Source of the DNA: Planctomycetota bacterium
GTDB taxonomy: Bacteria; Planctomycetota; UBA8108; UBA1146; JAKEFC01
Reading direction: 5' to 3'
DNA: 37,920 nt
Assembly: GCA_022616235.1 (NCBI GenBank)
Contig: JAKEFC010000095.1
Location: forward strand, 1 to 37,920
Made by a program: the position numbers and the translations under genes. How positions within the stretch are numbered: the first letter of the stretch is position 1; every line of letters begins with the position of its first letter. Below the pieces are notes generated by a model, which was not told the DNA's origin, made no database searches, and worked only from the letters and a program-made list of their open reading frames with translations. Of this stretch, positions 3,036-10,110 are shown piece after piece.

Positions 3036-3468
3036 GTTTCTCTCCTCTCGTGGAAACGCCCGCGCGCGGACGCCGTCCGCGGTTTCTGCGGGGACAATCC
3101 CACCTTGGCTTGGACCCAATTCAGATGTCGAGTGAAACTCTCGCCCCAACCGCCCAAACGATCAGCCCAATCGTAGCCTCGTGAGCGAGGCACTTCAACG
3201 TCCCAGGGTGCTCTGCACGGCGGCAACCGCGTGTGCCGGCGGCGTGATTCTGCACCGGATCGGTGCAATCAACCTAACATGCGGCTCGAATTTTGTGCCG
3301 AATGGCAGAAGGAAGGCACGCCGCGTCAGCACACGAAGCGTCCCTGGATTGCAAGGCAGCGCAAGGGCCTGTATTGATCTATCCATCACGCTGCACCATT
3401 TCGCATTTGGCAAATGCCCGAATCGAGCGGCCGACTCACGAGCGGAGTACTCATCCTGCAGCAAAGTA

Positions 3469-3497
3469 CGTAAATATTCTATTTGAAACAGTTTACG
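3469..3497. promoter_or_regulatory. Inverted repeat CGTAAA-N17-TTTACG in AT-richer intergenic region
   Basis: Arms at 3469-3474 and 3492-3497; candidate operator or upstream activating site. Confidence 0.35.
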
Positions 3498-3510
3498 AAC
3501 ACACTATGCT
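3483..3510 (+). promoter_or_regulatory. Candidate sigma70-type promoter
   Basis: TTGAAA (3483-3488), 16-bp spacer, TATGCT (3505-3510). Confidence 0.35.
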
Positions 3511-3691
3511 TGCTAGCGCAGCGATCTAGTACCAATTTCTTACGGCGGCGGCGCCTTATTGTGGACCCTTTGCATTGCCCTATTCGTGTGCAAACATGGG
3601 TAGGCAGCCTGCGGCGAGATGCTGTCTTCGCGTCCGAATTGAGGCCGCTGCACTAGAGTGTTCCTCGACGGCAACTCCCGGCTACGAATTG

Positions 3692-3706
3692 TGGCAAAGG
3701 AGTTGC
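3692..3706 (+). promoter_or_regulatory. Candidate sigma54 (-24/-12) promoter upstream of rsbR
   Basis: TGGCAAAGGAGTTGC: -24 GG and -12 GC at the exact consensus spacing of TGGCACG-N4-TTGC; predicted +1 near 3718. Confidence 0.6.
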
Positions 3707-3813
3707 CCTGCTGGAACGCAGGGTTGAGCAGGGAGCAGCAATCTCCCGTTTTCGACCAATCGCGCCATCCATGGAACCGGTGCCTGGGCGGCACCTACCG
3801 AGGAGGAACCACC

Positions 3814-4710
3814 ATGCCGCAGCGAATCGCCGTACAAGCGAACGTACAACCGACCGCCGATCTACTCAGCGAGCTGGTCGCCCACCTGGGCCAAAACCGG
3901 ACGCAGTTGCGCGAAGAGTGGGCACGCCGGATCACGGAATCCGTTTTGCTCACCGCGATGACCAAGGACGAGATCTTCGCCGAGGCGACCTCGGTGTACG
4001 ACAACTACGTGGAGGTGCTCGAGACCGGAAGCGTGGAGGCGTTGCAAGCATACGCTCGGAACCTATCCGAGCGAATCATCCCGCGGGGCGTCGAAACGCA
4101 CGAGGTCGTCGGCATCGTGCTCCTCCTGCGCGACGTCTTGGCGCGGTCGCTGTTCAAGAAGTATCAGGCGGACTTCGGCCTTCTGAACCGAGTGTTGGAC
4201 GCGTACGAGCCCGCCGCCAACCGCATTGCGAACACCGTCGCGGTGGGCTTCGTGCAGGAGCGCGAGCGCATCATCCGCCAGCAGCAAGAGGCGATCCGCG
4301 AGCTGTCTACGCCGGTTTTGCAGGTTCGCGAGCGCCTCCTCATCCTTCCCATCATCGGCATCGTCGACTCCCAGCGTGCGCGGCAGCTCACGGAACAATT
4401 GTTGCGCGGTATCCGATCCAACCGCGCCAAGGTGGTGGTGATGGACATCACCGGCGTGCCGTCGGTGGACTCGACCGTGGCCAACCACCTCGTGCAGACG
4501 GTGGAGGCCTCGCGGCTGCTCGGGGCCACGGTGATCGTGACCGGCCTCTCGCCGGAGATCGCCCAGACGCTCGTTACGATCGGCGTCGATCTGACGAAGA
4601 TGAACACGGTCGGCGACCTGCAAGGAGGGATCGAGGAGGCAGAGCGGTTGCTTGGGTACGATGTGACCTCCACGGGAAGGTTGGCGGCGGCGCACGGCGA
4701 CCGCGAATAG
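3814..4710 (+). CDS. rsbR: RsbR-type stressosome co-antagonist (RsbRD-like N-terminal domain + STAS)
   Basis: AGGAGGAACCACC ATG; C-terminal STAS with VVMDITGVPSVDSTVANHL and GLSPEIAQTLVTIG; directly followed by RsbS and RsbT. Confidence 0.9.
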   Translation: MPQRIAVQANVQPTADLLSELVAHLGQNRTQLREEWARRITESVLLTAMTKDEIFAEATSVYDNYVEVLETGSVEALQAYARNLSERIIPRGVETHEVVGIVLLLRDVLARSLFKKYQADFGLLNRVLDAYEPAANRIANTVAVGFVQERERIIRQQQEAIRELSTPVLQVRERLLILPIIGIVDSQRARQLTEQLLRGIRSNRAKVVVMDITGVPSVDSTVANHLVQTVEASRLLGATVIVTGLSPEIAQTLVTIGVDLTKMNTVGDLQGGIEEAERLLGYDVTSTGRLAAAHGDRE

Positions 4711-4737: not shown

Positions 4738-5115
4738 ATGCTTGTTCCGATCCTGAGACAAGGCCCCTACCTGATTGCATCGATTCAGTCCGCCCTCACC
4801 GACGCGGACCTCTTGCGGTTGCGCGATGATCTCGTCGAGCAAGTGGGGCGGTATCGCTCCCGCGGCGTGATCGTGGACGTCACCGTGCTCGATGTGATGG
4901 ACTCGTTCGCAGTGAGGACGATCAGCTCCCTCGCGCAGATGATCAAGTTGCGCGGCGCGGAGACGCTGCTCGTCGGGATCCAACCCGAAGTCGCATTCAC
5001 CATGGTCCAGCTCGGTCTCGCGCTCACGGGCGTGGCGACCGCGCTCGACCTCGAGGAAGGCCTCTCGTACCTCGACGAGCGTGACAAAGGGGGAGAACGT
5101 GTTGGGGGACGATGA
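4738..5115 (+). CDS. rsbS: RsbS stressosome scaffold, STAS-domain antagonist
   Basis: Single STAS domain, VDVTVLDVMDSFAVRT with conserved phosphorylatable Ser in DSF, GIQPEVAFTMVQLGLAL. Confidence 0.92.
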   Translation: MLVPILRQGPYLIASIQSALTDADLLRLRDDLVEQVGRYRSRGVIVDVTVLDVMDSFAVRTISSLAQMIKLRGAETLLVGIQPEVAFTMVQLGLALTGVATALDLEEGLSYLDERDKGGERVGGR

Positions 5116-5506
5116 GCTGCACGTCCAGATTCGATCCGACGCAGACGTCGTCCTCGCGAGGCAAGAAGGCCGCCGCTTCGCCTCCCGCCTCGAGTTCTCT
5201 TCGAGCGACCTGACGGTCATCTCCGCCGCTATCTCGGAGATCGCGCGCAGTATCCTGGAGTACGCCCGCACGGGCGACATGCACATCAAACTCGCGGAGA
5301 AGAACGGTCGAGTCGGAATCGTCGTGGTGGCGCGGGATGAGGGCCCCGGGATCCGCGACGTCGAGCTTGCGATGCAGGATGGATACTCGACCTCGGGGGG
5401 CCTGGGGTTGGGTCTCCCCGGCGCGCGCCGGCTCATGGATGAGTTCGAGCTGCGTTCGGAGGTCGGGCGCGGCACGACGGTCACGATGCGAAAATGGGCG
5501 CGCTGA
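5099..5506 (+). CDS. rsbT: RsbT switch serine kinase (GHKL ATPase)
   Basis: AISEIARSILEYA (N-box region), RDEGPGI, GYSTSGGLGLGLPGARRLMDEFEL; GTG 5099 after AAAGGGGGAG; overlaps rsbS end. Confidence 0.9.
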   Translation: MLGDDELHVQIRSDADVVLARQEGRRFASRLEFSSSDLTVISAAISEIARSILEYARTGDMHIKLAEKNGRVGIVVVARDEGPGIRDVELAMQDGYSTSGGLGLGLPGARRLMDEFELRSEVGRGTTVTMRKWAR

Positions 5507-5507
5507 C

Positions 5508-6140
5508 GTGGCCGGGCGCCGGCGCGACTACACGGGGCTCTTCGAGTGGGGGGTGGCGACCTTGACGTGGCCGAGCGAATCGGTGTGCGGCGATTCCTAC
5601 GTGGTGACGGAAGTCCCGCACGGTGCGGTCGTCGCCGTCTTCGACGGGCTCGGCCACGGGCATGATGCCGCGCTCGCGGCGGAGCGCGCCGCGGAGACCG
5701 TGCGCCGCTTCGGGAGCGAGCCGATCGTTCCGCTCGTGCACCGCTGCCACAATGCGCTCATCGGAACGCGCGGGGTGGTGATGAGCTTGGCGGCATTCGA
5801 CGCGCCAAAAGGCAGCATGTCCTGGATCGGGATCGGCAACGTGGAGGGTGTGCTGCTGCGAGCCGACCGCCGCGCAGCGCCGGCACACGAGCACCTCGTC
5901 CAGCGCGGAGGCCTGGTCGGTCATTCGTTGCCGCCCCTTCGGCCTTCCATGCGGACGGTGGCCGCCGGCGACGTGCTGATCCTCGCCACCGACGGTGTAA
6001 ACCCGGATTTTCTTGCGGAATTCGATGCGAAGGCACCTGCAAAGCGGATCGCGGAGAAGATTCTCAACAAGTGCGCAACGCGAAGGGATGACGCGCTCGT
6101 GTTCGTAATGAGGTACGGAACGGAATCGGGACCGGAATGA
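5508..6140 (+). CDS. rsbX: RsbX-like PP2C/SpoIIE-family phosphatase
   Basis: [43 protein letters not shown] start 1 nt after the rsbT stop. Confidence 0.88.
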
Positions 6141-7549
6141 TGCGCGAGGCTGAAGCGACCGAGCATTGGACCGACGTGGAGCTGGCGCCGCCGAACGGCA
6201 GCCGCAAGCTCTTGCGTCTGTTGGGTGTCGGAGCGGATTCGAGGATGCTCCGCGACTTGGCCCGCGTCGCCGAGCCGCACGCGGCGGCGCTGGAGAGCGT
6301 CGCGCAAGGCGACGCCGCGCACGAAGCGCTCGCGAACCGAGAGTGGGACGCCGTCGTCGTCGTACTGGACACGGAGTCACAGGAGGAAGTGGCGACTTGG
6401 CACCACAAGATCGCCGAGCTTGCCACGCGCCCGCGCCTCGTCGTCATGGTTCCCGCTCCCACGATCGCGTTCACGCTTCGCGCCACGCAGCTCGGCGGCA
6501 TAGACGTCGTGCCGCTCCCATTGTGGCAGGACCACTTCAGCGAAGCGCTCCGCCGTTTGTGCGCGACATTCGATGAAACCGCCCTCCCGCTCCCGGAGGT
6601 CGTACCGATCGCCGTAGGCCCCTACCAACTCGTCTCCGGCAGTCCCGCGATGTTGAACGTGTACCGCACGATCGCGCAGATCGCGCCCGGCACCGCGACC
6701 GTGCTCATCGTCGGGGAGTCCGGGACCGGCAAGGAGCTGGTCGCGCGCGCGATCCATCAGCACGGCAATCGCGCCGCCTCCCCGTTCGTCGCGGTGAATT
6801 GCGCCGCCATTCCCGAGAACCTCCTCGAGAGCGAGCTGTTCGGCCACGAAAAGGGAGCGTTTACCGGCGCAGTGGCCCGCAAGATCGGCCGCATGGAACG
6901 CGCGAGCGGCGGCACGCTGCTCCTCGACGAGATCGCCGACATGAGCCTCGTCTTGCAGAGCAAGATCTTGCGCGCGATTCAAGAGCGCGAGATCGAGCGC
7001 GTGGGCGGAAACGACCCAATCCCAGTCGATGTGCGGTTGATGGCCGCGACGAATCGCGACTTGCCCGCGCTGATCGCCCAGGGCCGCTTCCGCGAGGATC
7101 TCTACTATCGCCTCGCGGTGGTGACGGTCCGTGTGCCGAGGCTGATCGAGCGCGGCGACGATGTCTTGCTCCTTACCTCGCACTACCTTCGCGAGTTCGG
7201 CCGCCAATATGGCAAGCGGTTTTCGGCGATCTCGGATCGCGCGCTAGAATTGATGCGCTCGCAGCGATGGGTCGGAAACGTGCGGGAGCTGCGCAACGTG
7301 ATCGAGCGAGCCGTGGCGGTCGCGGAAGGCGGCACCTTGCGCGCCGAGCACCTGCCCGAAGAGTGGCGGGGCGACGCGAATGCGGTGCCGGCACCCAGGA
7401 CGCCGCCGCTACTTTCGCTGCAAGACGTCGAGGCGCGTCATATCGCGGAAACCTTGGCCAGGACCAAGGGTCATATCGGAGAGGCCGCGCGCATTCTCGG
7501 CGTGCACCGTAACACCCTCGCCCGAAAGATGAAGGAGCATCGCTTGTGA
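6137..7549 (+). CDS. Sigma54-dependent transcriptional activator (AAA+, Fis HTH) with degenerate receiver-like N-terminus
   Basis: GESGTGKE Walker A, EKGAFTGA sigma54-contact loop, GGTLLLDEI Walker B, C-terminal Fis-type HTH ([23 protein letters not shown]); ATGA overlap with rsbX. Confidence 0.95.
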
Positions 7550-8847
7550 CCGAGGCCCCTCGGGGGGAACCGCTGCGGCTCGAGCACGCAATGCGGCTCC
7601 TGCCCGACATCGAGGCGCTCGCGCCGCTACGCGCATTGATCGCTTCGTCCTCCAACGCCCTGCGCTTCCGCGACGAGGCGGTGGCGGACCCGAACGGGAC
7701 GATCGCGCGCCGCTTCGTCCAGCCCCTCGACTTGCGATCTCACATTCCGGCGGCGAGCGCCCGCCTCTCCGAGCATTTCGCGAAGCTCTACGGCGCGGCC
7801 GTGGAAGTGCTCGAAGCAGAGCAGCGGGGAGACCTCACGGGGACGGTGGCGGCGCTGCTTCGCGGCGGCGAAGTCGAAGAGCACGACGTCGCACGGTCGG
7901 TGCACGCATTCCAATGGTACGCTCACGCCCTCGGCGTCGCGGAGACTCTGCGCGATCGCCGGCCGGAGATCCGCGCCTTGCATCGCATCGGGCGCCTCGA
8001 GCTAGGACGCAGCTCGGTGGATGCCGCCGCGCGCGCCTTCCAGCGGAGCCTAGCGCTCGCGGAGGCGGAGATGTGGGAGGAGGGCGCGGCCCTCGCCTGT
8101 TTGGGATTGGGGGAGTGTGCGCTCGCGCACGCCAAGTGGCAGGGCGCGGAAGCATGGCTCACGCGCGGGCTGCGTCACGCACCGCCGAACGCGGAGATCG
8201 CGGCGCGCATTACGCTCGCCCTCGGCGAAGCCGCGAGAGGGAACAACGACTTCGATGCCGCTCGGGAGCGGCTGAGCGGCGCCGCCGCGATGTTCCAGGC
8301 CCTCGGGGATCGCGATGGGGTCGTGCGCACGCTGCACGCCACCGCGCGTCTAGCGCACGCCACCGGACGAGCCGGCGATGCGATCGAGAAGCTTCGCCTC
8401 GCTCTCGCGGAGGGGCGCCGCGGCGGCATGGGGCCCGCGCTCGAGCTGATGGTACGGCTTGGGCTGGGCGAGCTTCATCTCGATGCCGGGAGGCTTCGCG
8501 AAGCGGAAGATGAGCTTCGGCTCAGCGAATCGCTTGCGATCTCGAATCATTTCACCGACGCGCTCGCACGACTCTATGTTTCCTTCGGCAAACTTCGCGC
8601 GCGACAGGGGGACGAGAACGGCTTCGTCTTCTTCGAGCAGGCGCTCGCGCTATCGCGTGCGTCCGCGCTGAATCCGCGGCTCGAGGCCGACATATGCTTG
8701 GAGTACGCGCGATTTCGCGTGGCGCTCGCGGAGCACGAAGAAGCCTCCGTATACTTCGAGCGAGCGCGCGAGTTGTTCGAGCAACTCGGCGACGACGGCA
8801 CGCTCCGGCGCATTCGGACGGAGCAATCGCAGTACCTCTCCCGGTGA
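7546..8847 (+). CDS. TPR-repeat protein
   Basis: Helical repeats [38 protein letters not shown]...; GTGA overlap with the upstream activator gene. Confidence 0.8.
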
Positions 8848-8873: not shown

Positions 8874-9072
8874 TTTCGCGCGGCGGCAATTTCGAGGCTT
8901 GCCTACATTGGGGGCGCCGGCCCCACCTTCCATCCCTGCGCAGGCGCGGCAACACCGCAATTATCAACGAGCTAGCGCATTTCCGCGATTTCGGTACGCC
9001 CTCTGCAAGAACGGAGACACGCGCCGCGAAGCACGCGGCGGTACGGGCCGTTTCGGACGGAGGGGAAACCGG

Positions 9073-10110
9073 ATGGCCGGGCAACTTACGGAAGACGATC
9101 GACGCTTGTCCACGGTGCGTGGCGGCAATTCGAATCATGACGGTACTAGGGTGCCGCGGCTCGGCGAGTCCGAGCAAGAGTCGGTTGAAGCACAGCATGG
9201 CGGCGGCGCTTCGCGGCACCCGTTTTTCTTGCCGCCGCCAAACGGCCTGCCAGCGCCGGCGTCGCGCGGAAACGACGCGGAGCGGTTGCATCTCGACGAT
9301 TCCGAGGCCGCGGACCTCTCGAGCTTTGTCGCCGGGCATCGGCGCGAATTGAAACGCTCGCTCGGCCGCGACCCCGGAGAGCAGGTCGCGTTGCTCGACT
9401 ACATCTCGAACCTGCGCACGCCAGGCGTCGAAGTCTGCCTCGTCGCAACCAAGGACCTCGAGGCGCTGCGACGCGCCGCGATCCTCGATGCGCTGACGGG
9501 GCTCCACAACCGGCACTACTTTCAGAGCGTGCTGAGCCGCAACGTCGCTTCCTGTCACCGCTACCGCGAGACGTGCTCGCTGCTCCTCCTCGATGTGGAC
9601 GATTTCAAGGCGGTCAACGATCGCAACGGACATCGGGCGGGCGATCGCGTGCTGAGAGTCATTGGGAGGCTCCTTCGGACGCACACCCGCGCCACGGACG
9701 TAGCGTGCCGCTACGGAGGCGACGAATTCGCGATTCTGCTGCCGCACACGTCGCGCAGGAAGGCGCTCAAGGTCGCCCGCCGGATCCGCGCCGGCGTCCA
9801 CCGATGGTTCGCTCGGCGCTCCTCGCGGAGCTGCTTCGAAGAGATCACGGTAAGCGTGGGCATCGCAACGCTGCCTGGCGATGGTTCGTCGCCCGAGGGT
9901 CTGCTCGTTGCCGCGGACCGGGCGCTGTACCTAGCCAAGGAAGCGAAGGCCGATCGCAACTCGAATCGCGACGACTCGTACGAGGAGCCGCCAAGAGGAG
10001 GTACCCCGGCCGACCGCCTCCAAGACGCGGGCACTGACTTCGAAGAGGAGTGGTCCGCCACCGCTCGCGACGGCGGCAGCGCGTCGTCTTCGCATCTCGA
10101 TCCATGCTGA
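9073..10110 (+). CDS. GGDEF diguanylate cyclase
   Basis: DALTGLHNRHYF, LLLDVDDFKAVND, RATDVACRYGGDEFAILLP; intact GGDEF and RxxD I-site (RATD); ATG 9073 after GGAGGGG. Confidence 0.92.
   Translation: MAGQLTEDDRRLSTVRGGNSNHDGTRVPRLGESEQESVEAQHGGGASRHPFFLPPPNGLPAPASRGNDAERLHLDDSEAADLSSFVAGHRRELKRSLGRDPGEQVALLDYISNLRTPGVEVCLVATKDLEALRRAAILDALTGLHNRHYFQSVLSRNVASCHRYRETCSLLLLDVDDFKAVNDRNGHRAGDRVLRVIGRLLRTHTRATDVACRYGGDEFAILLPHTSRRKALKVARRIRAGVHRWFARRSSRSCFEEITVSVGIATLPGDGSSPEGLLVAADRALYLAKEAKADRNSNRDDSYEEPPRGGTPADRLQDAGTDFEEEWSATARDGGSASSSHLDPC

Follow-up and report, generated by a model that had tools for sequence, protein, structure and literature searches.

A candidate sigma54 promoter upstream of a stressosome operon that encodes its own sigma54 activator

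Introduction

Stressosome modules of the RsbRST type, such as those of the B. subtilis sigmaB system and of Vibrio, carry the genes for RsbR, RsbS, RsbT and a PP2C phosphatase in this order, and many known modules lack a sigmaB-type output. Operons controlled by an activator that they themselves encode are already known. In ZraSR and in the EBP genes located inside Desulfovibrio sigma54 operons, the activator gene lies within the operon that it is thought to work; these systems act via kinases or as one-component EBPs. NtrC sites are paired, about three turns apart, and the recognition helix of NtrC is GRNTLTRK. A phosphorylatable receiver is not required of all bacterial enhancer binding proteins (bEBPs). 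The E. coli NtrC consensus is TGCACCAnnnTGGTGCA (PMC8743547), and the operon described here has a similar site.

We analysed a 37,920-nt stretch of DNA (the window; contig C269, from a draft genome of 3.1 Mb) in which a stressosome cassette is followed by the gene of a sigma54 activator. The literature search, which lay mostly outside subscription papers and preprints, returned nothing joining the stressosome with an enhancer binding protein or with a Gemmatimonad. Likewise, the titles and abstracts of the papers it retrieved on the stressosome, sigma54 and RsbT mention no stressosome linked to a sigma54 activator.

Results

Organization of the operon

The genes of the operon and the gene that follows it are:

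3814..4710, plus strand: rsbR, STAS-domain stressosome sensor
4738..5115, plus strand: rsbS, STAS
5081..5506, plus strand: rsbT, serine kinase, HATPase_c_2
5337..6140, plus strand: RsbX-like PP2C phosphatase of the SpoIIE family, start probably near 5503
6137..7549, plus strand: sigma54 activator with a degenerate receiver, an AAA+ domain with GAFTGA and a Fis-type HTH
7546..8847, plus strand: TPR protein, conserved operon partner
8899..10110, plus strand: GGDEF diguanylate cyclase, start uncertain, also the next gene in the related locus L046

The STAS proteins RsbR and RsbS are followed by the RsbT kinase, as in a stressosome module, and the PP2C phosphatase comes next, as in B. subtilis and Vibrio. 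In contrast to those modules, no sigmaB, RsbV or RsbW was seen in the operon, and the next gene encodes a sigma54 activator. No sigmaB-type output (RsbU/V/W, sigB) was detected among the operon proteins scanned. Compared with ZraSR and the Desulfovibrio operons, the difference lies in the stressosome cassette that precedes the activator.

The original prediction, which held that the operon encodes its own sigma54 activator, is borne out by the AAA+ sigma54-interaction domain, the GAFTGA motif in the translation and the Fis-type HTH. The genome also contains rpoN, as one full-length copy and another truncated at the end of a contig; a genome without rpoN, one of the conditions that would have refuted the original prediction, is thereby clearly excluded. 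The two genes are distinct (G000:C202:18547-19020 and G000:C225:670-1146), with the RpoN boxes SRRTVTKYRE and ARRTVTKYRE.

An AGGAGG ribosome site lies 5' of the rsbR ATG at 3814. An upstream start, which would make the promoter motif coding, was rejected: the frame stays open as far as 3658, yet similarity to the relatives begins only at residues 1-17. A structured RNA element was also discarded, as no Rfam family reached its gathering score in the window and the matches near the promoter were at chance level; folding of the leader is ordinary (z -0.6).

The activator

Profile (best E 3e-7), structure model and fold search all class the N-terminal domain of the activator as receiver-like. The model consists of five alternating strands and helices, with a pLDDT of ~90 in the core. 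From our reading of the activator alignment (A1), the acidic pair and the conserved lysine are absent from the activator receivers, and an Asp occupies the acceptor position only in the activator of the window. The protein thus lacks the phosphorylatable receiver of an NtrC-like bEBP. The absence of the acidic pair and lysine makes a protein partner a more likely input than phosphotransfer. RsbT is the natural candidate for this partner, since rsbT lies directly 5' of the activator and TPR genes in two relatives, L217 and L218. The recognition helix, HRNTL[TA]RK, is conserved.

The candidate promoter

Two promoter-like elements precede rsbR:

3692..3706, plus strand: candidate sigma54 -24/-12 promoter TGGCAAAGGAGTTGC, predicted +1 at ~3718
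3483..3510, plus strand: rival sigma70-like promoter TTGAAA-N16-TATGCT

The sequence and coordinates originally given for the first element are exact, and so is its -24/-12 spacing (GG-N10-GC). The predicted start is 96 nt from the rsbR ATG. The element agrees with TGGCAC-N5-TTGC with one mismatch, but with TGGCACG-N4-TTGC, the form originally given, only with two. The base 3' of TTGC is a C, where A or T is preferred.

Sigma54 scoring against shuffled sequence, suggested together with the original prediction, was carried out with an ad hoc weight matrix and places the element near chance when taken alone (p ~0.05). Out of 20000 dinucleotide shuffles of 3301-3813, 1018 gave an equal or higher plus-strand score; in a 2.02-Mb background the rate was about 0.035 per 500 bp. 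Allowing at most one mismatch, TGGCACNNNNNTTGCW has 39 matches genome-wide versus 76 for the reversed control; a sigma54 matrix therefore has low power in this genome, and the pattern scan reveals no genome-wide excess of consensus sigma54 sites. By its letters the promoter is weak, and its credibility is much raised by comparison with its relatives.

Distribution of the operon

A scan of a sequence collection with RsbR gave 80 loci of 83-91% identity, spread over many phyla. The activator is present in 14 of them, all labelled Gemmatimonadota, with the TPR gene in nearly all and the gene order the same; further members of the operon family were added from genome searches. In the activator tree two clades are supported. 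Clade A comprises the window, L046, L217 and L218, and no new clade-A activator was found in a search of 345 genomes of the class. The 18 rows of clade B include L227 and L146. Judging from the searches, the genome of the window belongs to another phylum than the Gemmatimonadota set, so the operon has probably been transferred between phyla, though contamination of the bin may instead account for its presence.

Several other features of this family were observed. RsbR is unusually conserved over 82 loci from many phyla (median identity 85% in the N-terminal half and 88% in the STAS domain), its partners less so (RsbS 72%, RsbT 57%). Its spread is patchy; in the phylum of the window, an RsbR more than 80% identical occurs in only two other genomes of 392. 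L217 (4105-7523) and L218 (minus strand) carry a minimal rsbT-activator-TPR operon whose activator is 62-64% identical to that of the window; no rsbR, rsbS or phosphatase gene was detected beside it. Genome G394 contains the whole operon twice (L066 and L068), each copy with its own promoter and palindrome.

Promoters and sites in related operons

The clade-B promoter set consists of 17 operons (L064, L065, L066, L068, L070, L071, L077, L079, L083, L091, L097, L103, L105, L225, L226, L228 and L227), some of which are closely related and do not count as independent events; the outlier L146 was kept apart. The near-invariant box [TG]GGCA[CT]TAGCCTTGCT is present in 16 of these operons, 53-73 nt 5' of the rsbR ATG. 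L227 has a variant box, TGGCACTACGTTTGCG, 134 nt 5' of the ATG. The flanks vary, which gives the box the look of a footprint. L067 has the box too; its contig is short and stops ahead of the expected position of the activator. Among ~65 upstream regions of equally similar rsbR genes that come without the activator, two reach the score of the window, as expected by chance.

Conservation before orthologous rsbR genes, on which the original prediction was to be judged, is mixed, though for the most part positive. A sigma54 promoter is found in all 17 clade-B operons, but the letters of the window are not kept. The nearest full-operon relative, L046, has a weaker candidate, CGCACCTTAATGGTGCA, together with the weak GCGGCTCTGGCATTGCA; L146 has an NtrC-type pair at 32 bp but no sigma54 box, and no candidate sigma54 box was detected before rsbT in L217 and L218.

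All 17 clade-B promoters also carry an inverted repeat of 18 bp, offset downstream by 15-16 bases from where the -24 box starts. The repeat, TGTTGC-N6-GCAACA, is perfect in 15 of them, while L103 retains 5/6 pairs and L227 has TGTGGC-N6-ACCACA, also 5/6. It is the best conserved palindrome there and spans ~-11 to +7. In those clade-B genomes that were scanned for a perfect copy of it, the retrieved sites with an in-register sigma54 box were those with the rsbR promoter box.

Further upstream, paired GCACC-N5-GGTGC-like sites that pass set thresholds occur 33 bp apart in 9 of the 17 operons and 32 bp apart in L227, and in none of 65 controls. The centres of the pair lie ~151 and 118 bp 5' of the predicted start. 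In L227 the promoter is 75 bp further upstream and the distances are nearly kept (~151 and 120); the displacement of the pair together with the promoter supports the assignment of both promoter and enhancer. In this comparison the clade-B promoter and tandem sites accompany the activator only.

In eight operons (L065, L066, L068, L070, L071, L079, L097 and L105) we also noted a conserved block, GGGGA..TTGACCATTCGCGGATTGCGTC..TGGTGGCCCG.TCCCC with a T run behind it, ~-300 to -170 of rsbR. It resembles a terminator or a structured RNA and overlaps the first NtrC-type site.

Palindromes in the window

The window has four sites comparable with those of its relatives:

3251..3267, unstranded: NtrC-type palindrome TGCACC-GGATC-GGTGCA, perfect, proposed enhancer site I
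3283..3299, unstranded: weak second NtrC-type site GGCTCGAATTTTGTGCC, 32 bp from site I, 3 mismatches in 10 arm bases
3659..3676, unstranded: TGTTCCTCGACGGCAACT, possible additional site, 2 mismatches to TGTTGC-N6-GCAACA
3706..3723, unstranded: perfect inverted repeat CCCTGC-TGGAAC-GCAGGG (6-N6-6), with the geometry of the clade-B repeat

Site I is the sole perfect copy of TGCACC-N5-GGTGCA in the 3.1-Mb genome, and such a perfect palindrome arose in 1 of 10000 shuffles; pairs like site I and its weak partner arose in 1.4%. The distance from the proposed enhancer to the predicted start is 427-459 bp, against ~118-151 bp in clade B. Insertion of a repeat between enhancer and promoter was rejected, 3299-3668 being single copy. 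A promoter at the clade-B distance (~3384) was likewise discarded, as the sequence reads no GG-N10-GC there, and so was use of the sites by a divergent gene, for which there is no good minus-strand -24/-12 element. Compared with NtrC and its enhancers, the 17-bp TGCACC-N5-GGTGCA site, the RNTL[TA]RK helix and the sister-clade tandem sites ~three helical turns apart are alike. The degenerate receiver, the 430-460 bp between the sites of the window and the promoter, and the extra repeat at the start are not.

The inverted repeat has an offset of 14 bases from the -24 start and spans -12 to +6. None of 20000 shuffles contained promoter and 6-N6-6 repeat together, and the 2.02-Mb background contained them once, with an allowed offset of 14-16 that takes in the window's own 14; with 15-16 the window fails by one base. 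The geometry and the site definitions were picked after viewing the relatives, so that nominal p-values are optimistic. The repeat differs from that of clade B in its offset (14 versus 15-16) and in its half-site. GCAGGG recurs at 3728-3733, 10 bp further on, and part of the repeat may therefore stem from local repetition. The clade-B sequence TGTTGC-N6-GCAACA was rejected as the window's own site (best match 2 mismatches; 18 genomic matches versus 17 for the control), and the element at 3659-3676 was kept as secondary. The segment just 3' of the predicted start (window 3703-3741) could also form an RNA hairpin, CCCTGCT/AGCAGGG (z -2.2 for 3700-3740).

The original prediction did not include the enhancer-like sites or the inverted repeat, on which most of the case for autoregulation rests.

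Discussion

We favour, with moderate confidence, the reading that 3692-3706 is the sigma54 promoter of rsbR-rsbS-rsbT-rsbX-activator-TPR and is worked by the operon's own activator. Against this reading stand the near-chance promoter score, the long distance from enhancer to start, the differing offset and half-site of the repeat, and the weak or missing candidates in L046, L217 and L218. For the operon family, sequence comparison provides strong evidence that a sigma54 promoter is tied to the operon's own activator. The autoregulation originally proposed thus appears likely for the family, where promoter and tandem sites track the activator in the sister clade, and probable in the window, where conservation within its own clade is weak.

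It is unlikely, though it deserves serious weight, that the -24/-12 element is a look-alike arising by chance and that the sigma70-type promoter at 3483-3510 drives rsbR, giving a leader of ~300 nt. The near-chance score, the missing genome-wide excess and the presence of TTGAAA-N16-TATGCT against an expectation of 0.2 such sites per 1 kb would all agree with this. Such an explanation takes no account of the perfect repeat found at the homologous place, of the NtrC-type palindrome, which is unique, or of the sigma54 promoter that the sister operons conserve.

Alternatively, the sigma54 promoter could be real and run by a different activator, such as a true NtrC, with no self-feedback. Site I does fit the E. 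coli NtrC consensus (PMC8743547), but no other perfect copy exists in the genome, which gives no sign of an NtrC regulon; promoter and sites track the operon's own activator across genomes, and this activator itself has an NtrC-like recognition helix. We regard this as improbable. More improbable still is that the activator mainly represses its own operon through the start-site repeat, basal expression coming from another promoter. The palindrome, at ~-11 to +7 in the sister clade and -12 to +6 in the window, does occupy a typical operator position; most sister operons, however, combine upstream tandem sites with a consensus -24/-12 element, which fits activation.

Under self-activation from 3692-3706, RsbT would be held by the RsbR/RsbS stressosome and freed by stress. 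RsbT, or the balance of RsbT and RsbX, would then act on the activator through its degenerate receiver-like N-terminal domain. The active hexamer, bound at the NtrC-type sites at 3251-3299, would remodel RNA polymerase-sigma54 at 3692-3706. At the repeat at 3706-3723 the activator or another factor might throttle the promoter.

More broadly, we tentatively propose, with confidence falling a little short of even, a variant of the stressosome whose RsbT passes its signal to a degenerate-receiver sigma54 activator and not to RsbU-V-W-sigmaB. This variant would have a dedicated, self-controlled sigma54 promoter with NtrC-type tandem enhancers and a start-site repeat, and would be widespread in Gemmatimonadota and passed to other phyla. 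The outputs of stressosomes outside the Firmicutes are mostly unknown. If the proposal is true, a sigma54 activator and a matching promoter that travel with stressosome genes in a conserved operon would constitute a concrete output, namely energy-dependent, switch-like sigma54 transcription with feedback, and the near-invariant promoter of the sister clade would be a ready reporter for it.
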